Virus record (IMG/VR): IMGVR_UViG_3300044302_001311
Location: 1-21,201 of that record
Length of the DNA stretch: 21,201 nt
Direction: 5' to 3' (one strand)
Origin: a virus
The notes under the pieces are model-generated. The model did not search any database, was not told the origin of the DNA, and was given only the letters and a program-made list of their open reading frames with translations. The translations under genes were made by a program, and so were the position numbers. Of this stretch, positions 7,474-21,201 are shown one piece after another (the first letter of the stretch is position 1; each line of letters starts with the position of its first letter).

Positions 7474-7484
7474 AGGAGGTTCTT

Positions 7485-7538
7485 ATGAATGCGAAATGGA
7501 TGTTACAACCAGTTAGACGTTGCTGTAGAGGCTCCTAG
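7485..7538 (+). CDS. Putative 17-residue micro-ORF in the protease leader
   Basis: The DNA reads AAAGGAGGT, five bases, then ATG, followed by 17 codons (MNAKWMLQPVRRCCRGS) and TAG. The Shine-Dalgarno sequence is the strongest seen in the window, better than those of the capsid and sheath genes. The peptide is basic with a Cys-Cys pair. It lies 11 bases after the DUF1360-like gene and 35 bases before the protease start. It could be a real micropeptide, a leader peptide tuning protease translation, or simply ribosome loading for a downstream start. No homologue can be judged by eye at this length. Confidence 0.45.
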   Translation: MNAKWMLQPVRRCCRGS

Positions 7539-7543
7539 CTCGC

Positions 7544-7558
7544 ACGGGTAATGCCCGT
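7544..7558 (+). promoter_or_regulatory. Small hairpin between micro-ORF and protease gene
   Basis: A perfect 5-bp inverted repeat, ACGGG (7544-7548) and CCCGT (7554-7558), with loop TAATG. It begins five bases after the micro-ORF stop and ends 15 bases before the protease ATG. No T-run follows, so it is not an intrinsic terminator. It might affect translation or mRNA stability; it is short enough to occur by chance. Confidence 0.35.
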
Positions 7559-7573
7559 CAAAGGATTATTATT

Positions 7574-8171: not shown

Positions 8172-8582
8172 ATGAAAAAGAGTGAGTTCAAAGAAATGAT
8201 TAAAGAAAGCGTTAAGGAAGTCCTTGTTGAAGAGGGTGTTCTTAAGAGCGTTATTTCAGAAGTAGTAAAAGCGGTAGGGCAAGCGCAAGTATCCCAGCAG
8301 CCGGTTGCTGTGCAGCAGACATTTAAAGAGCAAGCTAATTTGGAAGCAATGGAAAAAAGAAAAGAAAAATTAGCAGAGACAAGAAAAAGAATGCTTGATG
8401 CTATTGGAAAAGATTCTTTTGGGGGCATAGATCTTTTTGAGGGCACAACGCCAATGAAAAAAGGCGGATCACCAGAAGCTACGCCTTCCTCGGCACTAGA
8501 GGGTGTAGACCCAAGCGACTCTGGAGTAGACATTTCAAGTTTACTTGGGGCAGCGTCTTCTTGGGAACAGTTAATAAAGTAG
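8172..8582 (+). CDS. Small scaffold/prohead-core-like protein
   Basis: A 136-residue protein. Residues 1-37 are an amphipathic Lys/Glu/Val helix (MKKSEFKEMIKESVKEVL), then a Gln/Val-rich segment, a Lys/Glu/Arg coiled coil (about 55-78), a Gly/Ser/Pro-rich linker and a C-terminal SLLGAASSWEQLIK helix. It has no recognised domain. Its start follows the protease stop by one base, and low complexity plus coiled coil resemble internal core proteins that gp21 degrades. GID-LFE and ALE are possible gp21-type (hydrophobic-x-E) sites, but this motif is weak evidence. Most likely a minor scaffold or core protein; not proven. Confidence 0.7.
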   Translation: MKKSEFKEMIKESVKEVLVEEGVLKSVISEVVKAVGQAQVSQQPVAVQQTFKEQANLEAMEKRKEKLAETRKRMLDAIGKDSFGGIDLFEGTTPMKKGGSPEATPSSALEGVDPSDSGVDISSLLGAASSWEQLIK

Positions 8583-8589
8583 GTATAAG

Positions 8590-8826
8590 ATGCGTAAAAA
8601 AGCAAAACCAGTTAATGTAGAGGTTACACCAAGAAAAAATGAATCTCCTGAAAGAATGATTAAGAGATTTATTAAAAAAGTTAAAAAAGAAGGCATTCAA
8701 GATGAATGGCGAGAAAAACATATGTTCTTTGAGAAGCCAACAGATAAGCGCCGAAGAAAAAAGAAAGAGCGCAATAGAATTTTAAAAAGGCTACAAAGAG
8801 AACGCGATGCTAAATATAAAGACTAG
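8590..8826 (+). CDS. rpsU: Phage-encoded ribosomal protein bS21
   Basis: A 78-residue, extremely basic protein that aligns along its length with bacterial bS21 (E. coli 71 residues). Seen here: an N-terminal strand VNVEVTPRKNESPERMIKRF (residues 8-27, matching the V-x-V-R-x-N/E...RRF pattern), KKVKKEGI (29-36), then the diagnostic FFEKPTDKRRRKKK (46-59) corresponding to E. coli FYEKPTTERKRAK, and a Lys/Arg helical tail. bS21 sits on the 30S platform beside the anti-Shine-Dalgarno helix and helps initiation. Phage copies are known from environmental phages and are thought to replace the host protein to favour phage mRNA. Compared with E. coli it has about ten extra N-terminal residues. It sits between scaffold-like and virion genes, so it should be expressed late. 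Confidence 0.88.
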   Translation: MRKKAKPVNVEVTPRKNESPERMIKRFIKKVKKEGIQDEWREKHMFFEKPTDKRRRKKKERNRILKRLQRERDAKYKD

Positions 8827-9359: not shown

Positions 9360-9443
9360 TATTTTTTTGCCAATCCTTTCATACAATTACAATAAAATAC
9401 TTAAATAAGTAATTTTATCAAGTCACAAATCCAATCCTCAAAA

Positions 9444-9453
9444 CTATTTATAT
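9444..9453 (+). promoter_or_regulatory. Intergenic CTATTTA element, copy A (divergent)
   Basis: CTATTTATAT in the 188-base gap between the 173-residue virion gene and the large fibre gene. It shares CTATTTA with the elements at 12570 and 18298, but here a terminator-like hairpin follows 21 bases later, before the next gene. If it is a promoter, its transcript would be short or need readthrough. The reverse strand reads TATAAATA-like, so its orientation is ambiguous. Confidence 0.35.
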
Positions 9454-9474
9454 ATGAGCACAATCTCGTGCTTC

Positions 9475-9495
9475 AAGCGCCTTCCGGCGCTTTTT
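9475..9495 (+). terminator. Intrinsic terminator before the large fibre gene
   Basis: AAGCGCC (9475-9481), loop TTCC, GGCGCTT (9486-9492), running into TTTTT at 9491-9495: a 7-bp GC-rich stem with a U-tract. Immediately upstream is a second, 5-bp hairpin (AGCAC 9457-9461, GTGCT 9468-9472). It would end transcripts of the head-assembly block ending at 9359. The rest of the 9360-9547 gap is AT-rich and holds no gene. Confidence 0.8.
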
Positions 9496-9547
9496 CTTTA
9501 ACTTAATATAAAAAATTTAATCATTAAATCTATGGGAGGATTTATAT

Positions 9548-12217
9548 ATGGCTACTCAATTATCACAAACCGGATTGGAGGTAGATAAGGTAGATACCGG
9601 AGATATCCCCACTGGGGCTACCGACAAGGTATTGCTTTACGCTTCTGGATCTGGTTCCGATACAAGACTCTATGTTAAGGCTGGTGCAAACACACAAAAG
9701 CAGCTAGGCTTTGACATTGATCAGTTCGATGCTCTTGGGGGAACAGGTGTTGCTCAAGGAGATCACTTCATCTTTTCTGATGCTGGAACTGAAAAGAAAA
9801 TTACTTTTTCTAACATGGAAGATGCAATCTTCGGAAATGTTTCCGGCGATGTCGCAATCGCAGCAGGTGGTGCCGTCACTATCCAAGCTGATGCTGTTGA
9901 AAGCGGAATGCTCAATGACGATGTTATTTCTGGTCAAACAGAATTAGCTTCTGATGGACTCGCTGCTGCTGACGAATTGATGATCAGCGATGGCGGAACC
10001 CTTAAGAAGATTGGTGTTGATAACCTTTTCAAAGATGGACCGGGACTCCTCGGAGCAGAAGCTATCGCTGTCGGAAGTGACCACTTCATGTTCCTTGATG
10101 GTGGGGCTACTGGCGATGCAAAGGTCGAATCTGTTGCTGATCTTATGACTGCTGTCGCTGGTGACGGTCTTGCTGCCTCTTCTGGTGTTCTCGCAGTTGG
10201 TGTCGATGATAGCTCAATCGAGCTTAACTCTGATGCTCTCCGCGTGAAAGCATCGGGTGTTACTAATGCAATGCTTGCAGGCTCTATCGCTGACAGCAAG
10301 TTGAACCAACTCACTAGTGCAAACAAAGTTTCTTTGGCTGCTTTGGACATTGATGGCGCAACTGCTCTTGGTGGAGCATCTGTAGCACAAGCTGATTTGT
10401 TGGTCATTGACGACGGCGCAGGCGGAACTAACAAGTCGGTTACTTTCTCTAACTTTGAAGACTCAATCTTTGCAAACATCTCTGGCGATGCTACAATCGC
10501 CGCTGGTGGTGCTTTAACTATTGCTGCTCAAGCAGTTGAAAACAGCATGCTTGCTGATGATGCTGTCGGTGCCGATGAGTTGGCTGCTAACGCTGTTGTT
10601 AACGCTTCTGTCGCATCTAATGCTGCAATCGCTGCTACTAAGTTAGACTTTAATGTCGATTTGGGTGGAAATGTTACTTTTGGTGACCAAGCAAACGACA
10701 CAGTGACTTTCACAGGTCATGTTAATGTGGCACAACAACTTACTGCTTCACATGCAAAGATCACCAACCTTGATGTTGTAACTCTTAACAGTATTGCTCA
10801 AACAGAATCAACACTTGAAGTTGCTGACAAATTAATCATTTCTGCTGTTTCAGCTTCCTCTGCCAACTCTGATGGCGGTGGTTTGAAAATCGGTGGAGGT
10901 CATGACTTAGCAGGAAACGCTTCAGTTCTTTATGACCACAGCAACACCGCTCTTGATTTTAACATTGGCGGAACAACTGAAGTAAGACTTGAAGACGGAG
11001 TTCTCCGCCCAGAAACTGATTCTGATGTTGATCTTGGAACAACTGCTGCTCGCTTCAAAGACGCTTTCGTAGACAGCATCACTGTTACTGGCGAGATTGA
11101 CGGTGCTTCTCTTGATATTAGTGGAAACGCTGATATTGATGGTACACTTGAAGCTGATGCGATTACTGTTAATGGTGCTACATTACAAGTAGTTGTTGAA
11201 GACCATGTTGGAGCAATGCTCGATGGTACAGAGACTGGTATTTCTGTTTCTTATGACTCTACTGACAATAACTTAGATTTTGTAATCGACGCAGCACAAA
11301 CTGCAATCACATCTATTCTTGCAACCGACCTTAAAATCGGTGAAGATGATCAAACAAAGATTGACTTCGAGACAGCAGATGAAATTCACTTCTACGCTGC
11401 AAATGCAGAGCAAGTTTATGTTGCAGACGGCGTACTTGGACCACAGACTGACAGTGATGTTGATCTTGGTGCAGACGGCGTTGCTTTTAAGAAGCTTTAT
11501 GTTGACGATATTGATCTCAACGGTCAAGGACGCATTGATCTTGATGCTGATGCTGACACTTCTATCCGTTCTGCTGCTGACGATCAAATTCAGTTTGAAG
11601 TCGGCGGAGGTGATAGGGTAACGATGACTGCGACTGGTATGGCTGTTGGTGCAGGCTATGGCGCTGGAGGTACATCCTTCGGCGTAGATGGCACTATCAA
11701 TGCTGGAAGCAACATCCTTGCCGGTGCTGATGGATCTGGAGCCAACATCATAGCTTACGGTGGAGCAGCGAATGAATTGATGCGCTACGACGCATCAAAC
11801 CACGTTCTTCAGTTCGTCGATAGTTCCGGTGGAACAATGCTTAACCTCGGTGGCGATGCCACTTCTGAGTACGCTTTGGACGTTGCTAACGGATCTAACA
11901 ACATCAACAAAGTTCGTGCTGCTGCATTTGTTACTTACTCGGACGAAAGCCTTAAGAGTGACGTTGCTTCTATGGGCAACACTGCTCTTGACACTGTTAT
12001 GTCCCTCAAGGGCGTCGAGTTCACTTGGAAAGATTCCGGTGAAAGAGACTTCGGTTTCATCGCTCAAGACGTTCAATCTGTTCTTCCAAAGGCAGTTCAC
12101 ACTGCTGATGACGGAGTACAGGGAGTTGACTACTCAAGACTTACTTCTGTTCTCGTCGAGGCTGTAAAGGCTCAACAAGTTCAGATCGAAGAATTGAAAG
12201 CACTCCTCAAGAAGTAA
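9548..12217 (+). CDS. Large repetitive fibre protein with C-terminal peptidase S74 domain
   Basis: An 889-residue protein with a good GGGAGG ribosome site. It is Ala/Asp/Gly/Thr-rich beta-type fibre throughout. Two repeat families are visible: an ALGG-x2-VAQ...TFSN-x-ED-x-IF...SGD...IAAGGA-x-TI unit (residues 62-112 and 273-325) and a DGVL-x-P-x-TDSDVDLG...VD-x-I unit (483-511 and 627-655). The C-terminus is an S74 chaperone: TYSDESLKSDV with catalytic Ser798 and Lys803, then FTWKDSGERDFGFIAQDV and a closing coiled coil (VEAVKAQQVQIEELK). Self-cleavage before Ser798 would release ~92 residues. Codons are biased to GCT, CTT, GGT and AAC as in the capsid gene, suggesting very high expression. 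Probably a long tail fibre or abundant head/whisker fibre; the exact location is unknown. Confidence 0.88.
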   Translation: MATQLSQTGLEVDKVDTGDIPTGATDKVLLYASGSGSDTRLYVKAGANTQKQLGFDIDQFDALGGTGVAQGDHFIFSDAGTEKKITFSNMEDAIFGNVSGDVAIAAGGAVTIQADAVESGMLNDDVISGQTELASDGLAAADELMISDGGTLKKIGVDNLFKDGPGLLGAEAIAVGSDHFMFLDGGATGDAKVESVADLMTAVAGDGLAASSGVLAVGVDDSSIELNSDALRVKASGVTNAMLAGSIADSKLNQLTSANKVSLAALDIDGATALGGASVAQADLLVIDDGAGGTNKSVTFSNFEDSIFANISGDATIAAGGALTIAAQAVENSMLADDAVGADELAANAVVNASVASNAAIAATKLDFNVDLGGNVTFGDQANDTVTFTGHVNVAQQLTASHAKITNLDVVTLNSIAQTESTLEVADKLIISAVSASSANSDGGGLKIGGGHDLAGNASVLYDHSNTALDFNIGGTTEVRLEDGVLRPETDSDVDLGTTAARFKDAFVDSITVTGEIDGASLDISGNADIDGTLEADAITVNGATLQVVVEDHVGAMLDGTETGISVSYDSTDNNLDFVIDAAQTAITSILATDLKIGEDDQTKIDFETADEIHFYAANAEQVYVADGVLGPQTDSDVDLGADGVAFKKLYVDDIDLNGQGRIDLDADADTSIRSAADDQIQFEVGGGDRVTMTATGMAVGAGYGAGGTSFGVDGTINAGSNILAGADGSGANIIAYGGAANELMRYDASNHVLQFVDSSGGTMLNLGGDATSEYALDVANGSNNINKVRAAAFVTYSDESLKSDVASMGNTALDTVMSLKGVEFTWKDSGERDFGFIAQDVQSVLPKAVHTADDGVQGVDYSRLTSVLVEAVKAQQVQIEELKALLKK
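9731..10522 (+). repeat. Long fibre repeat family 1 (two copies)
   Basis: Copies at nt 9731-9883 and 10364-10522 encode ~52-residue units sharing ALGG, VAQ-x-D, a TFSN-x-ED-(A/S)-IF-x-N-x-SGD run and IAAGGA-x-TI. Shorter related pieces (DELMISDGG-x-LKKIGVDNLF, nt ~9974-10030, and DHFMFLDGG near 10081) lie between them, suggesting a degenerate array of fibre-shaft modules. Confidence 0.75.
10994..11512 (+). repeat. Long fibre repeat family 2 (two copies)
   Basis: Copies at nt 10994-11080 and 11426-11512 (each 87 bases) encode DGVL-x-P-x-TDSDVDLG-x4-A-x-FK-x3-VD-x-I units. Copies are the same length, 432 bases apart, and lie downstream of repeat family 1 in the same fibre. Confidence 0.75.
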
Positions 12218-12232
12218 TACTTTTTGATAACC

Positions 12233-12269
12233 GAGGGCAGGGATCTACGGGTCTCTGCCCTCACCTTTT
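12233..12269 (+). terminator. Intrinsic terminator after the large fibre gene
   Basis: An 11-bp stem with one G-U pair: GAGGGCAGGGA (12233-12243) and TCTCTGCCCTC (12252-12262), loop TCTACGGG, followed by ACCTTTTC with a short T-run at 12266-12269. It starts 15 bases after the fibre stop. The stem is strong and the T-run modest, so partial readthrough into the next small gene is likely. Confidence 0.8.
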
Positions 12270-12274
12270 CTATT

Positions 12275-12529
12275 ATGCAAATCAATGACCGAACCGACAT
12301 TATAAGATATTTGCAAGAGCATGATCCTAGCTATCGTGTGGAAAATAATGTTATATTCGCCCCCAAAGCCTTTTTCATTAACACCCTTATTCAGTGGTGC
12401 TACAATCAATTAAATACGGGCAAAATAAAACCAAATGAAATGGATTTTTATCTAATGTCAATAGAGGGTTTTTTGCAAGATCATAACGATCTTTATTGGG
12501 ATAAAGATGGTAACTTGGTGATTTCATGA
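12275..12529 (+). CDS. Hypothetical 84-residue protein
   Basis: An acidic/aromatic small protein with helical stretches (DIIRYLQEHDP, FFINTLIQWCYNQL) and a DLYWDKDGNLVIS end. I chose the ATG at 12275; the frame is open to a TTG at 12224 but that start would place the terminator stem inside the coding sequence. No clear Shine-Dalgarno precedes the ATG, and the gene lies directly behind a terminator without an obvious promoter, so expression may be low or depend on readthrough. No family recognised. It is isolated between the fibre and scaffold transcription units. Confidence 0.6.
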   Translation: MQINDRTDIIRYLQEHDPSYRVENNVIFAPKAFFINTLIQWCYNQLNTGKIKPNEMDFYLMSIEGFLQDHNDLYWDKDGNLVIS

Positions 12530-12548
12530 ACTAAGTTGTTATTTTTTT
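12511..12548 (+). terminator. Possible intrinsic terminator at the end of the 84-residue gene
   Basis: TAACTTGG (12511-12518) can pair with CTAAGTTG (12531-12538) in an 8-bp stem containing two G-U pairs; the loop includes a TTCATGAA palindrome. It is followed by TTA and a run of seven T at 12542-12548. The stem overlaps the last codons of the gene. AU-rich, so weaker than the other terminators. Confidence 0.45.
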
Positions 12549-12569
12549 GTATTTTTGAACTTTAAAGAA

Positions 12570-12579
12570 CTATTTACTA
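12570..12579 (+). promoter_or_regulatory. Intergenic CTATTTACTA element, copy B (candidate late promoter)
   Basis: CTATTTACTA, 22 bases after a possible terminator and 45 bases before the scaffold gene start. It is identical over 10 bases to the element before the tail sheath gene. A position between a terminator and the scaffold-capsid unit suits a late promoter; this is inference from recurrence and position only. Confidence 0.5.
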
Positions 12580-12582
12580 CGA

Positions 12583-12601
12583 CGCAAAACGCCTATTTGC
12601 G
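12583..12601 (+). promoter_or_regulatory. Hairpin in scaffold gene leader
   Basis: CGCAAA (12583-12588) pairs with TTTGCG (12596-12601) around loop ACGCCTA, a 6-bp stem lying between the CTATTTACTA element and the AGGAG ribosome site of the scaffold gene. No T-run follows. It might be a 5' mRNA-stabilising hairpin; it may also be chance. Confidence 0.35.
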
Positions 12602-12624
12602 ACCAAATATTAGGAGATTATATA

Positions 12625-13650
12625 ATGTCATCAATGTTAGATCAAGCAATCGTAGATGCTAAAGAGCTTAAAGAAGCCGCGATTAAAAGCGCAGAGTCAA
12701 GTATTATTGAAAAGTATTCTCAAGAAATTAGAGAAGCTGTTGATACCATGTTGAGTCAAGAAGAGATTATCAATGAGGATGAAGCAAGCATGGTCAGTGA
12801 TATTCCAATGGCAGCATCAGATGTAACCGATGCATCATCTGTTGGGGAAGAAACAGTCGAGCTTGACTTTGCAGAATTAGAACAAATGATTGATCAAGAG
12901 TTAGCTTCTGAGGATGGATTAGACCCAGAAGAAATGACAGACCGACATGATTTCGCCGAAGAAGAACTAGACAAGCCTGAAGAGGAGCTGCAAGAAGCAG
13001 ACGAGATTGATTTGGCTAACTTATTTGAAGATGAAGAAATTAATTTAGACGAGGAAGAGATAGAGAAACTAGCAGAAAAGCTAACACTTGATTTTGAGCC
13101 TGTAAAGTCTGGCAATTTAGGCATGCCCGATAGTCAAAAACACGAGGCATACGAAGAAGCAAAGGCTCTTGATGCTCATATGGACGAAGAGGACGACTCT
13201 GACGAAATCGATAAAGAGGTCGGAAAGCTTAGAGAATCTGTAAAAACTTTAAAACAAGAAAAGAAAGATTTGCAAGAAAGCCTCTCCTCTCTTCAGTCTA
13301 ATACCAAACACATTGAGGACGTTGTTCTCAAATTAAAAAATGCTCTGAACGAAACCTCAGTTCAGAACGCAAAGCTACTTTACACAAACGAAGCATTGAC
13401 TAGCGACTCGTTGAATGGGCGACAAAAAACAAAACTTGTCGAAGCTATTTCAAATGCTAAGTCTGTGGAAGAAGCTAAGGTAATCTTTGAAACCCTTCAA
13501 AGCACGGTGAGCGGAACCAAGAAAGAGTCCCCGAAAACACTAAGCGAGGCGGTTAGTAGGAAATCTACTTTATTACCACAAACTAAAGAGGCTAAAAACC
13601 CAGCAGACCCTCGTATCGATAGGATGCGTAGATTAGCTGGATTAAACTAA
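12625..13650 (+). CDS. 22: Prohead core scaffold protein (gp22-like)
   Basis: A 341-residue, very acidic helical protein placed directly before the capsid gene, as in T4. Residues ~75-155 are dominated by Asp/Glu (ELEQMIDQELASEDG, EEELDKPEEELQEADEID). Residues ~190-255 are a coiled coil (KLRESVKTLKQEKKDLQESL). The C-terminal part contains LNGRQKTKLVEAISNAKSV (about 269-287) followed by EEAKVIFETLQ, a region I recognise as conserved in T4-type gp22 scaffolds. In the family it forms the core around which gp23 assembles and is degraded by the gp21 protease; several hydrophobic-x-E sites are available. It has an AGGAG site ahead of ATG. Size is slightly above T4 gp22 (269). Confidence 0.88.
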   Translation: MSSMLDQAIVDAKELKEAAIKSAESSIIEKYSQEIREAVDTMLSQEEIINEDEASMVSDIPMAASDVTDASSVGEETVELDFAELEQMIDQELASEDGLDPEEMTDRHDFAEEELDKPEEELQEADEIDLANLFEDEEINLDEEEIEKLAEKLTLDFEPVKSGNLGMPDSQKHEAYEEAKALDAHMDEEDDSDEIDKEVGKLRESVKTLKQEKKDLQESLSSLQSNTKHIEDVVLKLKNALNETSVQNAKLLYTNEALTSDSLNGRQKTKLVEAISNAKSVEEAKVIFETLQSTVSGTKKESPKTLSEAVSRKSTLLPQTKEAKNPADPRIDRMRRLAGLN

Positions 13651-13671
13651 CTTTAAAGGAGAAATAAAACT

Positions 13672-15444
13672 ATGTCAGTTTTAGATAAATTAACAGAAGG
13701 CATTGTTAATCGTGACCTCCAGAAAGAAGGTGCAGCCCTACTTAACAAGTGGGAAAAGACCGGACTTCTTGAGGGCATTGACAGTGACCAGAAAAAAGAC
13801 GGAATGGCACGTTTGCTTGAAAACCAAGCAAAAGAGCTACTCCGCGAAGCATCAGCCATGGCGGCTGGTGATGTTGAAGGTTTTGCATCTGTTGCATTCC
13901 CAATCGTTCGCCGTGTATTCGGTAATTTGATCGCCAATGATCTTGTAAGCGTTCAGCCAATGAGCCTCCCATCGGGACTCATTTTCTTCTTGGATTTTAC
14001 ATCCAATACTCCAAAGGCTGGATATCCAAAGGATGAATCACTTTACGGTGGTGGAGTTGTTGCGAAAGGTCTTCGCGACGGTGTTTCCCTTGATGGAGGA
14101 GGAAATGGAAACCTTGAAAAAGGTCCTTACAGCTTGAATAACGGCTATGCTAGCCCAACTGGTTCTGGTAACTGGACCAAGGCTGATGCTACCCTTATTT
14201 CTGGTATTGTTGGCTCCGGAGACTTCAACGTTGATAAGGCTGTTGACTTTGACCCAGATCTTTCTGGCTCTGCAATTGTTTCCTTCCCAGTTACTTTAGT
14301 GGATAATGGGGATAACTCCCAAGCGGATTATTTGAACCTTGTAGCATTTTCGGGATCACTTCCTTTCATCCACACTGGTGGTACCAATGAAGAGGTTGGT
14401 TTCCAAATTCGACGTTTGACCAAGCTTCACTCCGGCTCCTCTGGAGATAAGTACGATGGCACAAACACAAGCATGCTGCTTAGAGTTGTTTATGCTGCAA
14501 CTGGATCCCTTAAGGGAACTTCTGCGGGGCTCACTGAGCTTGTTAACGCAGCCAAGGCTGTCGCTGACACTTTCCCATTGACTTATCCACTTGCGGATGA
14601 GTTCAAAGCGGGTGGCGCAATTGGCTCTGTTGTCGGTGAGCCTAAGTGGGACCTTGAGAATAGCGTTGACATTCCAGAGATCGACATCAAAGTTGACTCT
14701 ATCGCAGTTACTGCTAAGACCAAAAAGCTCAAGGCTAAGTGGACACCAGAATTGGGACAAGATCTCAATGCTTATCACAACCTTGATGCAGAAGTTGAAC
14801 TTACAAGCATTCTTTCTGAGCAGATCGCTCTGGAGATTGACCGTGAGATTCTTGAGGACCTTATCAAAGGTGCTACTGCTTCTACACAATACTGGTCTCG
14901 TCGTCCGGGTAGGTTCTTAAACAGAACTGACGGATCACAAATTGGCGGAAACTTGGACAATGAGTCCTTGATGGGTGCTGACTTCACTGGTACTGTTTCC
15001 GAGTGGTACGAAACACTCGCAGAAACTGTTAATGATGTTTCGGCTCAAATCCACAGAAAGACACTTCGCGGCGGAGCTAACTTTGTTGTTTGTTCACCAG
15101 AAGTAGCTAACATTCTTGAGTTCACTGCTGGCTTCCGTGCAAGCATTGGAAACGATTATGGTAACGGTTCTATTGGAGCAGTTAATGTTGGATCTTTGAG
15201 CAAGAAGTTCGACGTTTATGTGGATCCTTATTTCCCACGTAACGTTCTTCTTGTTGGACGTAAAGGTGGATCATTCCTCGAAAGTGGATATGTATACGCC
15301 CCATATGTCCCACTCCAAGTAACTCCAACTATCTTTGGTGTAGAGGACTTCGTACCTCGTAAGGGTGTTATGACCCGTTACGCCAAAGAGATGGTAAGAC
15401 CTGATATGTATGGTCTTGTTATCTGTGAAGATCTTAACGGTTAA
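13672..15444 (+). CDS. 23: Major capsid protein (gp23-like)
   Basis: A 590-residue precursor of the head shell. The N-terminal 60 residues are a charged helical propeptide; ELLRE-A at residues 55-60 fits a gp21 cleavage site (after Glu59), near T4's cleavage after residue 65. Then come the typical gp23 stretches FASVAFPIVRRVFGNLIANDLVSVQPM (about 71-97), a variable Gly/Ser-rich domain (~110-310), KAKWTPELGQDLNAYHNLDAE (about 354-374), EIDREIL, and a C-terminal half ending with FVPRKGVMTRYAKEMVRPDMYGLV. It is longer than T4 gp23 (521), with the extra length in the variable domain. AAAGGAG lies ahead of ATG. Codons favour GCT, CTT, GGT and AAC, consistent with the most abundant virion protein. 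A terminator follows. Confidence 0.96.
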   Translation: MSVLDKLTEGIVNRDLQKEGAALLNKWEKTGLLEGIDSDQKKDGMARLLENQAKELLREASAMAAGDVEGFASVAFPIVRRVFGNLIANDLVSVQPMSLPSGLIFFLDFTSNTPKAGYPKDESLYGGGVVAKGLRDGVSLDGGGNGNLEKGPYSLNNGYASPTGSGNWTKADATLISGIVGSGDFNVDKAVDFDPDLSGSAIVSFPVTLVDNGDNSQADYLNLVAFSGSLPFIHTGGTNEEVGFQIRRLTKLHSGSSGDKYDGTNTSMLLRVVYAATGSLKGTSAGLTELVNAAKAVADTFPLTYPLADEFKAGGAIGSVVGEPKWDLENSVDIPEIDIKVDSIAVTAKTKKLKAKWTPELGQDLNAYHNLDAEVELTSILSEQIALEIDREILEDLIKGATASTQYWSRRPGRFLNRTDGSQIGGNLDNESLMGADFTGTVSEWYETLAETVNDVSAQIHRKTLRGGANFVVCSPEVANILEFTAGFRASIGNDYGNGSIGAVNVGSLSKKFDVYVDPYFPRNVLLVGRKGGSFLESGYVYAPYVPLQVTPTIFGVEDFVPRKGVMTRYAKEMVRPDMYGLVICEDLNG

Positions 15445-15470
15445 TTCCTGCTGAGTCTAAACAAGCAAGA

Positions 15471-15501
15471 AGCCTCGTCATTAATTTGGCGGGGCTTTTT
15501 T
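15471..15501 (+). terminator. Intrinsic terminator after the major capsid gene
   Basis: AGCCTCGTC (15471-15479) pairs with GGCGGGGCT (15488-15496) in a 9-bp stem with two G-U pairs, loop ATTAATTT, followed by TTTTTT at 15496-15501. It lies 26 bases after the capsid stop and closes the scaffold-capsid transcription unit. Confidence 0.88.
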
Positions 15502-15532
15502 ATTTCTATTATGCTTTAAGTTTACTCCACAA

Positions 15533-15542
15533 CTAATTACTA
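15533..15542 (+). promoter_or_regulatory. Intergenic CTATTTACTA-like element, copy C
   Basis: CTAATTACTA, one mismatch from copies B and D, 31 bases after the T-run of the capsid terminator and 30 bases before the gp13 start. Location between a terminator and the first gene of the neck block supports a promoter role. Confidence 0.45.
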
Positions 15543-15572
15543 TGATACGATTGTACCAAGGAGAATGAATGA

Positions 15573-16865
15573 ATGGCTTACCCAACTTTAACACCAACAA
15601 GCACAACGAGTGTCTCTAGACTGCCTGTAACTGGCAATGTTGATAATGTTAATAGCTCCACAAATCCTCTTCCATACGGAGTATATACAGACCATGCCTC
15701 TTCACATCATGCCCTTCAGGGTTTTGTAACTGGAGCAGTAGATCAGGTTGCTTACGTCTATAAGAAGATGGGCGGCGATATTCTCGATATTGAGATTACC
15801 GAGTATCAGGTATACGCTGCATACGAAGAGGCATGCCTTGAATACTCCTATCTTGTCAATATACATCAAGCCAAGAATGTCTTGGGTAGTGTCTTGGGTG
15901 CCAATACTGGCTCATTCGATAATGACGGACAACTGTCAGGCTCCCATTCCCTAAGTGGATCTTCCGTGGAATTAAAATATCCAAAGTATGACTTTCAATA
16001 CGCACAGAGAGTTGGCGATGCAGTCTCAACTCAAACAGGGATAGGTGGGGCAACACCAATCTATTCTGCTTCTTTCGATACCGTAGTAGACAAACAAGAT
16101 TACGACCTGCAAAACATTATTTCCAGTTCTGCTGCAACTGACACCGCTTCTCCTTTCTTCAATAAATTAGGAGATAAGAGGGTGACAATTAGAAAAGTTT
16201 TTTACAAAACTCCCCAAGCGATGTGGAGATTTTACGGATACTACGGAGGCTTAAATACTGTAGGTAACTTATCATATTATGGACAATATTCAGACGATTC
16301 CACTTTTGAATTGATACCCACATGGCAAAACAAATCACAGGCAATGGCGTTTGAAGACGCGATATACACTAGGGCATCTCATTATTCATTTGAGATCAAG
16401 GACAATAAATTAAGATTGTTTCCAACCCCCGTTGAATCATCACCAGATAAATTCTGGGTTGAGTTTTCAGTTGATACTGATCCATGGACTGAGGAGGCGG
16501 GCAAAGAAGGTGGAGCCGCAGGCATCAACAACATGAACACGTTGCCATTTGAAAATATACCATATGATAGAATTAACTCAATAGGAAAGCAGTGGATTAG
16601 AAGATTCGCTTTAGCATTGTCTAAAGAAATGCTGGGCTTGGTTAGGAGTAAATTCGCTACAATACCAATTCCAAATGAGAGTGTGACCTTAAATGGACCC
16701 GCCTTGGTAACTGAGGCTAAAGAACAGCAAAACCTTTTAAGAGATGAATTAAAGACTGTGCTTGATGAGCTTACTTATGAAAAGCTAGCAGAAAAAGACA
16801 GCAACATTAGCGATTCATCACAGAATGTATTAAAGAATGTACCCCCTTCACTTTATGTAGGATAA
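15573..16865 (+). CDS. 13: Neck protein (gp13-like head completion)
   Basis: A 430-residue protein. Regions seen: VYKKMGGDILDIEITEYQVYAAYEEACLEYSY (about 63-94), Tyr/Gly-rich WRFYGYYGGLNTVGNLSYYG (about 216-235), LRLFPTP (about 284-290), and a helical C-terminus QWIRRFALALSKEMLGLVRSKF followed by IPIPNESVTLNG and a coiled-coil tail. The end region is the pattern I associate with T4-type gp13 neck proteins, which close the filled head and join it to the tail. It is longer than T4 gp13 (309), with Ser/Gly-rich insertions near residues 105-135. The start was chosen as the third ATG of ATGAATGAATG; only this one opens the long frame. It is followed at 6-9 base gaps by gp14- and gp15-like genes, which supports the identity. 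Confidence 0.72.
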   Translation: MAYPTLTPTSTTSVSRLPVTGNVDNVNSSTNPLPYGVYTDHASSHHALQGFVTGAVDQVAYVYKKMGGDILDIEITEYQVYAAYEEACLEYSYLVNIHQAKNVLGSVLGANTGSFDNDGQLSGSHSLSGSSVELKYPKYDFQYAQRVGDAVSTQTGIGGATPIYSASFDTVVDKQDYDLQNIISSSAATDTASPFFNKLGDKRVTIRKVFYKTPQAMWRFYGYYGGLNTVGNLSYYGQYSDDSTFELIPTWQNKSQAMAFEDAIYTRASHYSFEIKDNKLRLFPTPVESSPDKFWVEFSVDTDPWTEEAGKEGGAAGINNMNTLPFENIPYDRINSIGKQWIRRFALALSKEMLGLVRSKFATIPIPNESVTLNGPALVTEAKEQQNLLRDELKTVLDELTYEKLAEKDSNISDSSQNVLKNVPPSLYVG

Positions 16866-16871
16866 AAATAA

Positions 16872-17360
16872 ATGGCAGACAACAAATGGGAACAACCAAC
16901 TAATCCTCCGCCACCCTTATTTACTGGGGAGAAAGAGAGAAATTTAGTCAAGCAGATCAATGATGAAGTCATAGAGCGCGTCATCGGTCAAACTGTGCTT
17001 TACTACCCCATAAGTCTAGATAAAACTAATTTCCACTCCCTTTACGGTGAATCAATCAAGAAGACGTTTTTGCCACCTGTTAGAGTTTATGCTTTGATTG
17101 GATGGGAGGGGCAAGAGACAACAACAACAAGTCTTGGCGTTGACAAGAGGTCGAGAATCAAAATATATTTTCACAAGAGGAGATTAACTGAAGATCAAAA
17201 TTTGTTTGTCCGAGAGGGAGATTTTGTGTTGTACGGTAAATTTCATTATGAGATTTTAGATTTAAATGAGCCCAAGCAACTTTTTGGACAAGTTGATTAC
17301 AAATATGAAATCATGGCAAATTGCGTTAGAGCTAGAAAGGGAACGTTCGACGCTTTGTAG
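16872..17360 (+). CDS. 14: Neck protein (gp14-like head completion)
   Basis: A 162-residue protein starting 6 bases after the gp13-like gene. Visible are an N-terminal Pro-rich piece, a helix EKERNLVKQINDEVIERVIGQ (about 17-37), a YYPIS strand and a beta-rich remainder with EGDFVLYGKFHYEILD (about 115-130) and MANCVRARKG near the end. The arrangement (helix, GQ-x-V-x-Y-x-P, YGE, later FEI/YEI and NC) resembles T4-type gp14 neck proteins that work with gp13 in head-tail joining. It is clearly shorter than T4 gp14 (256), so it may be a reduced version or a different adaptor. The call rests on both pattern and neighbours. Confidence 0.62.
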   Translation: MADNKWEQPTNPPPPLFTGEKERNLVKQINDEVIERVIGQTVLYYPISLDKTNFHSLYGESIKKTFLPPVRVYALIGWEGQETTTTSLGVDKRSRIKIYFHKRRLTEDQNLFVREGDFVLYGKFHYEILDLNEPKQLFGQVDYKYEIMANCVRARKGTFDAL

Positions 17361-17369
17361 GAAATAAAA

Positions 17370-18272
17370 ATGTCAAATTATACAGGTATACCAGAGGAAG
17401 AAGGGAACAACTATGATCAGGATTTGGATTTTACTCCATCTACCATCGAAACAGTTGATTACGCCATTTATGATTATATAAATGATAAACTATCTTTAAA
17501 AGTGACATCAAAAGATGGGCAAGAAAAAGTACCCATTGTTTGGTCCTCGGCAGAAAGATCCTTCCAAATAAAAAACAACCCAGACTATAGAGACAATGAA
17601 GGTACAATTATACTTCCTGCCATAACAATTGAAAGAACATCTATAAATAAAGATTTAAATCGAAGAGGTCGCTTTTATGGAGATCAGTTTCCAATACAAT
17701 CTCAAAAAGAGAAGGGCGGATCTTTAGTGATCGCTAGACAAATAAATCAGAAAAAGACATCTGAGTTTGCTAATAACGATGCCAATAGAAGATATGGAGG
17801 CAGGGAAGGACCAAGGTTTGTTAGGAATCCAACAAAGAAAGTTGTATATGAATACATAACAATACCTGCCATAGTTTATTCCGTGATTAATTATGAAATT
17901 ACCTTAAGAACCGAATATCAGCAGCAGATGAATCAGCTTCTACAACCATTTGTTACTAGACCGGGAACAATCAACAGTTTTGTAGTAGAGCGCGACAGCC
18001 ATAAATATGAGGCATTTATTCAAGGTACATACAACTTAGCCAACAATTTATCCTCCATGGATAATGAAGAGAGAAGGTTTGAGACTAAGGTAAATATAGA
18101 AGTTTTGGGATATTTCTGCGGAGGAGATGAAAACAGCACAACACCGACATATTCTATAAGAGAAAATGCAGTTCAATTTAGGATTCCCAGAGAGAGGGCT
18201 TTGTGGGACGATCCGCTTGTGGGCAACGACAACCATAAAAATAAGGGAGTAGACGACAAGTACAGAGAATAA
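17370..18272 (+). CDS. 15: Tail sheath stabiliser/tail completion protein (gp15-like)
   Basis: A 300-residue protein, near T4 gp15 (272). Family-typical stretches: VDYAIYDYINDKL (about 29-41), VPIVWSSAERSFQIK (about 54-68), RDNEGTIILPAITIERTSI (about 74-92) and, in the second half, EYITIPAIVYSVINYEITLRTEYQQQMNQLL (about 161-191), ending with a Arg/Asp-rich tail. In T4 gp15 forms the hexameric cap at the head-proximal end of the tail, stabilising the sheath and binding the neck. It follows gp14 by 9 bases and is the last gene before the sheath protein it would contact. An Arg/Asn/Gly-rich insertion occupies about residues 93-152. Confidence 0.82.
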   Translation: MSNYTGIPEEEGNNYDQDLDFTPSTIETVDYAIYDYINDKLSLKVTSKDGQEKVPIVWSSAERSFQIKNNPDYRDNEGTIILPAITIERTSINKDLNRRGRFYGDQFPIQSQKEKGGSLVIARQINQKKTSEFANNDANRRYGGREGPRFVRNPTKKVVYEYITIPAIVYSVINYEITLRTEYQQQMNQLLQPFVTRPGTINSFVVERDSHKYEAFIQGTYNLANNLSSMDNEERRFETKVNIEVLGYFCGGDENSTTPTYSIRENAVQFRIPRERALWDDPLVGNDNHKNKGVDDKYRE

Positions 18273-18297
18273 TTTTGGACTTTGATAAAACGGTGCA

Positions 18298-18307
18298 CTA
18301 TTTACTA
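18298..18307 (+). promoter_or_regulatory. Intergenic CTATTTACTA element, copy D (candidate late promoter)
   Basis: CTATTTACTA, an exact 10-base match to copy B, in the 85-base gap before the tail sheath gene and 50 bases before its ATG. No terminator hairpin is seen between the gp15 stop and this element. The gap otherwise contains only an AT-rich leader and the AAAGGAG ribosome site. Confidence 0.5.
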
Positions 18308-18357
18308 AAGAAATAATATCGTCATCTATATCAGACGTTTTAAAGGAGAACACACTA

Positions 18358-21201
18358 ATGTCAGCGAAAAATTTTAAGTTTGTATCGCCGGGAGTATTCA
18401 TCAATGAAATTGACAATTCACAATTGCCAACTATAAGTGACGCAATTGGTCCAGTTATCATAGGGAGATCCCGCCGTGGACCGGCTTTCATACCAACTAC
18501 AGTCCAATCATTTTCGGAGTTTGTTACTCTCTTCGGAGATCCAGTCGCAGGGCAAGAAGCCAGCGACCAGTGGAGAAGTGGAGTTCCAAAAGCTCCTACT
18601 TTTGCGGCGTATGCAGCTCAGGCATGGTTAAGAAACAGCTCTCCTTTAACTTTCATTAGGCTTTTGGGCGATCAATCCAACAGAAACACAGGAACAAATA
18701 CCTCTAAGGCAGGTTGGACCGCAGCAGATTCCTCGCAAGGTGGAACCAACGGCGGCGGCAGCACATCTGGTGGTGGAGGAGCTTATGGTTTGTTCTTGGT
18801 CAACTCTGGTACAGCAGGCACCCTCGGTCCTTCCGGGACACCAGAGAGAGTAACTGGATCACTAGCAGCGGTTATTTATACAAGATATGGTGCGCCAATC
18901 CTTTCCGGTACAGTTAGAGGTCAAGGCGAGCCAGCAACTTCCGCATTCTCTGCTTCCATGTTAAACTTTAGTGGAGCAAACGGGTCTGTTGCGGCAACAA
19001 ACACGATTGTATTTAGTGTGCCTTCAGCGGCTGGCGGAGCCGGGACAACAACTATTAAATTTAGTGCCGATACAGATGGGACAGGTGGAGACGGGGTTGA
19101 TACAATTGGTATTGGTGTTAATAGTTTGGGATCCGCAACCATCCCGGCAGGTGATGTCGAACTTATGGCAGCAGTTAGAGACGCTATCAATGGTAATGCC
19201 GCAAGCAATGCGAGAGTTACAGCAGCCACAAGCGGTAATGGATCAGGCACAGGTGGTGTACAGGGTATCACAGCTTTCACTGGCTCTCTTACTGATTATG
19301 GCGCTGGTACTGCTGGTCAGTTAGCTACTCATTTGGCATCCATCTTTGTAGACGCTTCTGGCTCGGTAGGCAACACTACTACAGTCACAATGGCAGCTAA
19401 CTCAAAGGTGTCCGATGGTGTTACGACTGCTGTTACCATTACTGGCGGCGATGACTCCCGAGCAACAATTGCAACAGGGTCCAATGCATTGGTCAAGTCT
19501 CTTGACAGTAATGGCAACTTCTCATTTAAAGTTAGGGTTATTAACAACAGCGGCGTTCTTGCTACGACTGATGCTGACAATCCTGTCGGAGTATTGGAAG
19601 AATCAATTGTTAACTTTAACAGAAGTTCCAATAGCTACATCAGAAAAGTTTTAAACACAGACCCAACTAAGACAAACGCATCCTTAGTTAATACCGAGTC
19701 TGATCAATTAAAGTCTTATTTCTTGGGACAAACATACGAAAGATCTATTGCTGACAAGATTACTGGTAATAGTTGTTATGGATTTATAGCCCAACTTGGT
19801 GGCGCGACCAACATAACTGACGGTGGAGCTTTTAAGTACCCCACTCAAGCAGCACAAACAGGGTGGTTTTTCTCACAAGACTTGAGAACAACAGCCGCTA
19901 GCCACACTGCTGCTAGCAATAAGCTGGTCCCAGCGTACAACCCAGAGGTTGGTTCAGGCGTTGTTGACAGGCTGTTTAAGTTTCACACTCTCAGTACAGG
20001 AGAGGAAGAACAAAGAAATTACAAGATATCAATTGAGGATATTAAATACTCTAAAAATGATAACACGCCATATGGTTCGTTTACTATAGCTATTAGAGAC
20101 ATTAAAGATAATGATGGAGCAAGAATATATGTTGAAAGATATACAAACTGCAACCTAGATCCTAGTTCTCCAAACTATATCGCAAAAAAGATTGGTGATA
20201 GATACTACAAGTGGAGCGAGAACGATAGAAGAGTTATTGAGTATGGAACATACCCAAATATCTCCAATATTGTCAGAGTGGATATGGCACCCGCAGTTGA
20301 CTCTAGCCAGCTTAACCCGGAGGTTTTGCCATTCGGTGTCGAAGGACCACTCAAGCTAACAGACTTTAACATCGTAGGATCATCTGGTGTATTTAGTGAC
20401 ACTATCCTTAGCGGTATCAACTCACCAGTTATCATAGGCTCGGGTTCTACATATCCGCAAAACTTCGGTTCTGTTACAGGATCTGCAACTCAGTTATTAA
20501 TTTCTGATCACCCAGCAATTGTCCAGCCACTTTCAGCTTCTATTGAGTTCCCGCGTGTCCCATTGAGACTTAGCTCAAGTACACCAGAGTTGGCTAACAA
20601 AAGAGATGCATACTTTGGCGCTACGTTTACTAGGTCGTCTGCTTCGGTAATCTATGAAGACTCGATGCAAGATGTGTTGTACCCGCTTCCAGCTGGAGGT
20701 CAAGCCTTTAGCGCTGTATCAAATGAGACAGAACTTTCATGGTATTTCTCGCTAGATGACTTGGTATATGTTGGTGCAGCTAGCACTACCACAGGTGATA
20801 TGTTCTACCAATCAGGCTCTAGGGAATTGGGTTCATCTACCACTGCTATGACAGGAAGTTATAAATCAGTCCTAGATAAGGGATATGATAGATTTACAAC
20901 TCCTCTTTTCGGTGGCTTCAACGGCTTTGACATTACAGAAAACGAGCCGCTTAATGCATCCAGAGCCTTGGTCGCAGGAGCAACAGAGACTCAATACTCA
21001 ATGGCTTATACAATTAGAAAAGGTATTGACATGTTCTCTGACCCTGAGTACATTGAGGGTAACTTGTTAGCAGTTCCGGGAGTTACCAATGAGGGCTTAA
21101 CAACACACATGATTAATACATGTGAAGAACGTGGAGATGCTTTGGCTGTTATTGATCCATTGGGTGGCTACACTCCTGCTGCGGAAAACTACGAGACTGA
21201 T
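18358..21201 (+). CDS. 18: Tail sheath protein (gp18-like), truncated at the window end
   Basis: An open frame from ATG (with AAAGGAG eight bases upstream) to the last base, 948 codons without a stop, so partial at the 3' end. Sheath hallmarks: N-terminal SPGVFINEIDNS (10-21), IGPVIIGRSRRGP (30-42) and FVTLFGDP (55-62), then WLRNSSPLTFIRLLG; near the window end MFSDPEYIEGNLLAVPGVTN and ERGDALAVIDPLGGY, typical of contractile sheath C-terminal domains. Already ~290 residues longer than T4 gp18 (659). Part of the excess is a Gly/Ser/Thr-rich beta insertion at about residues 200-390 (nt ~18955-19527), built like an Ig- or Hoc-like external module. The protein polymerises around the tail tube and contracts at infection. 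Confidence 0.92.
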   Translation, partial: MSAKNFKFVSPGVFINEIDNSQLPTISDAIGPVIIGRSRRGPAFIPTTVQSFSEFVTLFGDPVAGQEASDQWRSGVPKAPTFAAYAAQAWLRNSSPLTFIRLLGDQSNRNTGTNTSKAGWTAADSSQGGTNGGGSTSGGGGAYGLFLVNSGTAGTLGPSGTPERVTGSLAAVIYTRYGAPILSGTVRGQGEPATSAFSASMLNFSGANGSVAATNTIVFSVPSAAGGAGTTTIKFSADTDGTGGDGVDTIGIGVNSLGSATIPAGDVELMAAVRDAINGNAASNARVTAATSGNGSGTGGVQGITAFTGSLTDYGAGTAGQLATHLASIFVDASGSVGNTTTVTMAANSKVSDGVTTAVTITGGDDSRATIATGSNALVKSLDSNGNFSFKVRVINNSGVLATTDADNPVGVLEESIVNFNRSSNSYIRKVLNTDPTKTNASLVNTESDQLKSYFLGQTYERSIADKITGNSCYGFIAQLGGATNITDGGAFKYPTQAAQTGWFFSQDLRTTAASHTAASNKLVPAYNPEVGSGVVDRLFKFHTLSTGEEEQRNYKISIEDIKYSKNDNTPYGSFTIAIRDIKDNDGARIYVERYTNCNLDPSSPNYIAKKIGDRYYKWSENDRRVIEYGTYPNISNIVRVDMAPAVDSSQLNPEVLPFGVEGPLKLTDFNIVGSSGVFSDTILSGINSPVIIGSGSTYPQNFGSVTGSATQLLISDHPAIVQPLSASIEFPRVPLRLSSSTPELANKRDAYFGATFTRSSASVIYEDSMQDVLYPLPAGGQAFSAVSNETELSWYFSLDDLVYVGAASTTTGDMFYQSGSRELGSSTTAMTGSYKSVLDKGYDRFTTPLFGGFNGFDITENEPLNASRALVAGATETQYSMAYTIRKGIDMFSDPEYIEGNLLAVPGVTNEGLTTHMINTCEERGDALAVIDPLGGYTPAAENYETD

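Follow-up and report, generated by a model that had tools for sequence, protein, structure and literature searches.

The octamer ACTATTTA, found upstream of virion genes throughout a large group of T4-like, uncultured phages, very probably represents, with its close variants, the late promoter of the Far-T4 phages. Together with a -35-like box located at fixed spacing upstream, it would form a two-part promoter that is read by a gp55-like factor with sigma region 2 and region 4 in concert with the host RNA polymerase, and we consider this explanation as a whole to be probable. What is new here is the -35-like box and, as the likely reader of this box, the gp55-like factor of the sigma2-sigma4 type; in the open-access literature, which was the scope of the search, no description of ACTATTTA or of a Far-T4 late promoter was found.

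Motif copies in the structural gene block

The window, i.e., the whole stretch of 21,201 nucleotides of viral DNA that was analysed, contains the structural block of a T4-like phage, comprising genes for terminase, portal, prohead protease, scaffold, major capsid protein gp23, neck, sheath stabiliser and sheath. The closest annotated matches of its gp23 were from uncultured large phages, Mel-JY01 and RM378, followed by T4-like phages at 30%. Judged by these best annotated matches, gp23 is nearer to Far-T4 members than to T4 or cyanophages, and by this measure the window phage is a Far-T4 phage.

Four copies of the motif, termed A to D, were recovered on the + strand at the positions given in a preliminary description of this DNA. 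The 10-mer proposed there was narrowed to a conserved core of eight bases, ACTA(T>A>C)TTA, which takes in the preceding A, found to be invariant in relatives; the trailing CTA is weakly conserved. Copy A (core ACTATTTA, 9443-9450) is located 97 nt upstream of a tail-fibre-like gene. Copy B (core ACTATTTA, -10-like, 12569-12576; predicted +1 near 12582) is separated by 48 nt from the ATG at 12625 of the scaffold-like gene that it putatively drives (12625..13650, + strand); this gene, with a coiled coil, lies between the prohead protease region and gp23, and its homologues occupy the same place in relatives. Copy C (core ACTAATTA, 15532-15539; predicted +1 near 15545) precedes by 33 nt the ATG at 15573 of the neck (gp13-like) gene (15573..16865, + strand; phrog_211 head-tail adaptor, E = 3e-10), and copy D (core ACTATTTA, 18297-18304; predicted +1 near 18310) precedes by 53 nt the ATG at 18358 of the tail sheath gene (18358..21201, + strand). 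These two genes are likewise the putative targets of their copies. The sheath gene is cut by the window end and was identified via tblastn to the annotated tail sheath proteins of the Mel-JY01 and immuto phages. For gp23 itself (13672..15444, + strand; phrog_138, E = 5.7e-72), no core was found in the upstream regions of relatives. The lack of a motif of its own fits co-transcription with the scaffold gene, behind which gp23 is presumably transcribed.

The assignment of the four copies to the four largest non-coding gaps (about 188, 95, 128 and 85 bp) holds if one disregards the 100-bp gap 7474-7573, which is filled by a conserved micro-ORF. This micro-ORF (7487-7540; MNAKWMLQPVRRCCRGS) lies upstream of the prohead protease gene and is followed by the hairpin CACGGGTAATGCCCGT; its peptide core WMLQPVR.CC.GS is retained in far relatives, e.g., L034 and L074. 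Terminators had been described ahead of both copies B and C. Between the major capsid gene and copy C, close to the latter, an intrinsic terminator with a 14-pair stem and a T-run was indeed found (15467..15500, + strand), whereas copy B is preceded by a T-run only, with no terminator called.

As already remarked in the preliminary description, the short word also occurs in coding sequence: ACTANTTA was found eight times on the + strand of the window, four of these being coding (1557, 3528, 3552 and 7347), and not at all on the - strand. With up to two mismatches allowed, CTATTTACTA gave 22 matches in the window as compared to 23.8 expected, which is no better than chance; the evidence for the motif is therefore comparative and comes from relatives. 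The T4-type TATAAATAG, read as the reverse complement of copy A, was rejected as a candidate, the other copies being different and the motif being confined to the sense strand.

In addition, a phage-encoded ribosomal protein bS21 was found at 8590-8826 of the window (PF01165, E = 1.4e-13), adjoining strong Shine-Dalgarno sequences. Flavobacteriales mostly do without Shine-Dalgarno use, and the combination is of interest because the predicted hosts include this order. Bacterial genome contigs revealed no clue to the host.

Conservation, strand and gene class

A gp23 scan of IMG/VR yielded 80 loci of relatives. Redundancy among their upstream non-coding segments was removed on the basis of shared 20-mers, and every 8-mer was ranked relative to a second-order background. 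Top of the ranking was ACTATTTA, present in 81 of the 243 non-redundant segments from these approximately 80 relatives versus 2.8 expected, with no occurrence on the opposite strand; the variants ACTAATTA and ACTACTTA were found in 22 and 12 segments, respectively. An independent set of 179 segments, from contigs found via a different gene and having no 24-mer in common with the first set, again placed ACTATTTA at the top (19 versus 1.3 expected, 0 reverse). Enrichment in relatives had been named beforehand as the finding on which the promoter depends, and the motif ranked first in both sets. The logo built from 120 instances reads ACTA(T 0.67, A 0.17, C 0.13)TTA, followed by a weak Y and W. 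The motif is confined to the sense strand, where it lies 5-116 nt ahead of start codons, and terminators precede it in 32 of the 120 instances.

Conservation of the core extends far beyond that of its surroundings. More than 40 relatives, with sheath identities as low as about 40%, carry ACTATTTA unchanged or almost unchanged upstream of the sheath gene, in surroundings that vary, and upstream of the scaffold gene the core was retained to 30% protein identity while the flanks diverge. At the place of copy C, upstream of the neck gene, relatives carry ACTAATTA, ACTATTTA or ACTACTTA (CTAATTA, CTATTTA or CTACTTA in the neck homologues).

In all 29 of the 29 genomes or large contigs compared, the major strand of the motif was that of the gp55-like gene, with approximately 300 occurrences versus 26. 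A 185-kb relative contains ACTATTTA 21 times on the gene strand and not once on the other, as compared to 11 and 13 for the reversed control; in the T4 genome it occurs 0 and 6 times, which is below the controls (21 and 16). Across the group, the motif precedes scaffold, neck, sheath, tube, baseplate and fibre genes. The intergenic copies of the 185-kb relative precede genes for baseplate wedge, tube, spike, sheath, neck and scaffold and several genes of unknown function; they were found in 8 of the 18 segments between genes of the virion block versus none of the 11 from the replication and left blocks together (Fisher p = 0.012), and no intergenic copy lies at 112-133 kb, where the replication block is located. 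Segments of this genome devoid of the motif amount to 10 of 18 in the virion block and 29 of 37 in the right-hand region. In immuto, a cultured Flavobacterium phage, ACTATTTA was found upstream of the portal gene (120621) and other late genes, including those at 117631, 145373 and 153855. The first rank of the 8-mer, its strict strandedness, its association with virion genes and its absence between replication-block genes of one large genome bear out the late promoter suggested in the preliminary description, and the genes concerned would be transcribed late in infection.

Two further observations were made on these genomes. Genome-wide in immuto (NC_055915.1), a second motif, TATATTTAGGTATCAATAATT, was the top 8-mer family upstream (18 segments versus 0.75 expected), which is possibly an early or middle promoter. 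Motif-driven genes at 151308, 159706, 183192, 184151 and 184466 of the 185-kb relative (reverse complement) have a common N-terminus like MKLTKQQLIKVIKEEL; the window gene at 8172 begins with MKKSEFKEMIKESVKE. This type of N-terminus might act as a targeting signal for proteins inside the head.

Copy A behaves differently from copies B, C and D. From its predicted +1, two hairpins followed by a T-run extend over 9456..9497 of the + strand (RNA folding z = -5.0), ahead of the fibre gene. The second of them, approximately 25-47 nt from the core on its downstream side, was identified as an intrinsic terminator (9475-9492) in a terminator scan. Copy A is conserved in eleven relatives (L008, L010, L013, L014, L020, L022, L023, L026, L027, L028 and L030). 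The window shares the two-hairpin layout with eight close relatives, and L022, L026 and L030 have a single hairpin-terminator at this place. In the hairpin alignment, 94.9% of the cells were paired and two pairs showed compensatory change, and a layout similar to that of copy A was seen at 151216 of the 185-kb relative. These features speak for the view that copy A, and only this copy, is no gene promoter but gives rise to a short RNA of some 45 nt with two hairpins, or to an attenuated leader ahead of the fibre gene. Since a terminator follows in only 5 of the 120 motif instances, a -35-like box is absent at copy A and the covariation of two pairs is thin, we give this reading slightly less than an even chance. 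Be it a short RNA, an attenuated leader or a weak site, copy A is best kept apart from the ordinary gene promoters.

The upstream box and a probable gp55-like sigma factor

A second conserved block, GGnTTTTT, was revealed at -20 to -13 from the A of the core, leaving about 16 bp between GGnTTT and TATTTA. With terminator tails excluded, it persisted in 27 gene families and was reached in 0 of 2000 permutations, with the same outcome whether families were shifted as a whole or not; GGNNTTT was concentrated at -20/-19 from the core. In the window, the box is present at copy B (GTATTTTT, 12549..12556, + strand), where it occupies exactly the consensus position, at copy C with the same spacing (TGCTTTAA, 15512..15519, + strand) and at copy D (GGACTTTG, 18277..18284, + strand), where GGACTTT is retained at this position in the sheath promoters of relatives. 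In the upstream sequence of copy A, TCACAAAT, no such box was found. In one large promoter family the box is weak, and none was apparent in immuto. As far as sequence comparison goes, this conserved box at fixed spacing is an addition to the promoter of the preliminary description.

Transcription would start about 6 nt after the last core base. The core is rarely less than about 4 nt away from the Shine-Dalgarno core, and there is no sharp upper limit, distances of up to 100 nt being reached; this minimum and the position of the copy A hairpin at the predicted +1 both fit such a start.

A candidate reader of the promoter was found in relatives. The gp55 family phrog_234 matched one ORF of the 185-kb relative (E = 2e-5; 7e-4 by hmmscan), and the protein has hundreds of homologues in IMG/VR, 45 of which were taken into the alignment; it is also present in Mel-JY01 and immuto (29% identity). 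The immuto protein, gp118 (NC_055915.1 78174-78872; L106:1465-2187), is annotated as hypothetical. Similarity to T4 gp55 is weak and was detectable over region 2; the Pfam models Sigma70_r2 and r4 gave no match in the protein of the 185-kb relative, nor did a search of solved-structure sequences with the gp55-like profile. The 21-kb window contains no gp55-like gene. In the nearest complete or long relatives that have one, the capsid protein is 62-69% identical (best segments), and we infer that the window phage carries such a gene as well.

AlphaFold2 modelling of the gp55-like protein from 45 sequences (pLDDT 81.6) gave an N-terminal domain that matched sigma region 2 (4lup, sigma E region 2 with -10 DNA; rmsd 2.8 over 93 residues) with a Z value of 8.5, values of 7-9 being such as may arise by chance in helical proteins. 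In the comparison of the whole model, nearly all among the matches listed were sigma factors. When the C-terminal 95 residues were modelled alone (pLDDT 91), the best eight matches were region 4 of SigH, SigD, sigma 32, SigB, CnrH and SigA, with Z values of 7.7 to 5.1; Foldseek E-values for the models were >0.001. The predicted fold joins region 2 to a region-4-like domain of about 90 residues at the C-terminus; with Z values that are only moderate and Foldseek matches that are weak by themselves, it is regarded as likely and not as proved.

The alignment showed no SLDFLYE-like hydrophobic clamp-binding tail at the C-terminus. Among 14 records, phrog_223 and phrog_254 (gp45 clamp and gp33) were found in T4 only, in a search that strongly diverged versions would escape. 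Two candidate partners were discarded: the conserved gene next to the gp55-like gene received no support as a gp33 equivalent, and a small protein of the 185-kb relative (L110:1411-1734, - strand), with a cysteine cluster and a stand-alone sigma region 4 (PF04545, E = 1.2e-7), was not conserved in other loci.

We propose that the diverged gp55 homologue directs the host RNA polymerase to the late promoters, whereby its region 2 would read the -10-like core and its C-terminal domain the upstream box that most of these promoters add. Recognition of the late genes would then not require the sliding-clamp system on which T4 depends. The main argument for this two-part reading is that the region-4-like domain and the -35-like box co-occur in the same phages. 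What had been termed the phage's own machinery is in all likelihood a phage-encoded gp55-family sigma factor that acts together with the host enzyme.

The MotA box of T4 middle promoters is centred at -30, and the T-rich box described here, at about -33 to -26, is near that position; moreover, TGCTTTA at copy C resembles a MotA box. The box might accordingly be read by a separate activator, as MotA reads its box in T4, and the C-terminal domain found in the gp55-like protein would then not be its reader. However, the MotA DNA-binding domain PF09158, of which diverged forms could escape detection, was not found in 10 relatives, immuto and Mel-JY01, as compared to E = 7e-71 in T4, and both the resemblance of the C-terminal domain to region 4 and the 16-bp spacing suit a sigma factor; a separate activator is considered unlikely.

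The consensus of the Bacteroidota SigA is TAnnTTTG at -7 and TTTG at -33. Recognition by such a host main sigma factor, without a phage sigma, would draw on a vague likeness of TAnTTA to TAnnTTTG and on the prediction that Far-T4 hosts are largely Flavobacteriales (PMC13037479, PMC7198788). It is very unlikely in view of the missing conserved TTTG after the core, the concentration of the motif at virion genes and not between replication-block genes, its tracking with the gp55-like gene, and the different motif, TATATTTAGGTATCAATAATT, that marks many other genes in immuto. An RNA-level element, i.e., a site in the 5' untranslated region at which late mRNA is processed or bound, would be expected in the same sense-strand location ahead of start codons, but is the least probable of all, given the fixed-spacing box upstream, the motifs directly behind terminators, where new initiation is needed, and a logo without a conserved downstream partner sequence across families.

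Relation to known late promoters and implications

As given in the cited passages on T4, the late promoter is TATAAATA at -13 to -6 without a -35 element (PMC2988020, PMC1524935), and T4 gp55 is described as being without region 4 (PMC2988020). Aligned to it, the Far-T4 core would take the register A-13 C-12 T-11 A-10 N-9 T-8 T-7 A-6. Both are 8-bp AT-rich -10 elements of virion genes having TA at -11/-10 and -7/-6; they differ in that ACTATTTA replaces TATAAATA and that, going by the same passages, only the Far-T4 promoter of the two carries a -35-like box (PMC2988020). The T4 promoter is read by gp55 with gp33 and gp45, and its Far-T4 counterpart presumably by a gp55-family protein. The difference from T4 asserted in the preliminary description was confirmed: TATAAATA had 0 forward occurrences in the 179 independent segments and neither enrichment nor strand bias in the 185-kb relative, and it was dismissed as a promoter on either strand for want of enrichment.

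A further comparison is with the late promoter of the Aeromonas phage Aeh1, (a/g)CTAAATA, with a/g C at -13/-12 followed by TAAATA (PMC2988020, PMC1524935). In the register adopted above, which for the Far-T4 core is inferred, it has A/G at -13, C at -12 and TA at -11/-10 and -7/-6 in common with ACTATTTA but AA at -9/-8 in place of N and T, and the cited passages report no upstream box (PMC2988020, PMC1524935). At the protein level, the likeness to T4 gp55 over region 2 contrasts with the additional, predicted region-4-like domain and the missing clamp-binding tail of the Far-T4 protein.

The predicted arrangement, with region 2 and region 4, resembles that of ECF-type sigma factors (sigma E and others; Rm378p144 of RM378). 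The ECF consensus has GGAACTT at -35 and a spacer of about 16 bp, and both box and spacing of the Far-T4 promoter are similar to these. In contrast, the gp55-like protein is too diverged for the Pfam sigma models, and ACTATTTA is not an ECF-type -10 element. RM378 was rejected as a close model, its top 8-mers being TTATTTAA and TATTTAAA and its sigma factor being of the ECF type, with no gp55-like protein; the top 8-mer of Mel-JY01 is ATATTTAT. Both phages have the TATTTA centre in common with the Far-T4 motif and not the whole word.

Far-T4 phages are widespread in waters. How their late genes are switched on was open, because no T4 core gene for transcription regulation had been detected in Far-T4 contigs (Roux et al. 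2015, PMC4360716). A concrete answer is now offered, consisting of a promoter, a candidate sigma factor and, with immuto, a cultured phage having both the gp55-like gp118 and ACTATTTA. It also suggests how the odd, clamp-dependent late system of T4 may have arisen: conceivably, and we put this forward as a tentative idea that may well prove wrong, T4 gp55 is what reduction has left of a complete late factor of the sigma2-sigma4 type, one still found in Far-T4 phages, where it would read a two-part promoter without a sliding clamp, and the clamp system replaced the lost -35 element. In many uncultured genomes, the motif marks operon boundaries.
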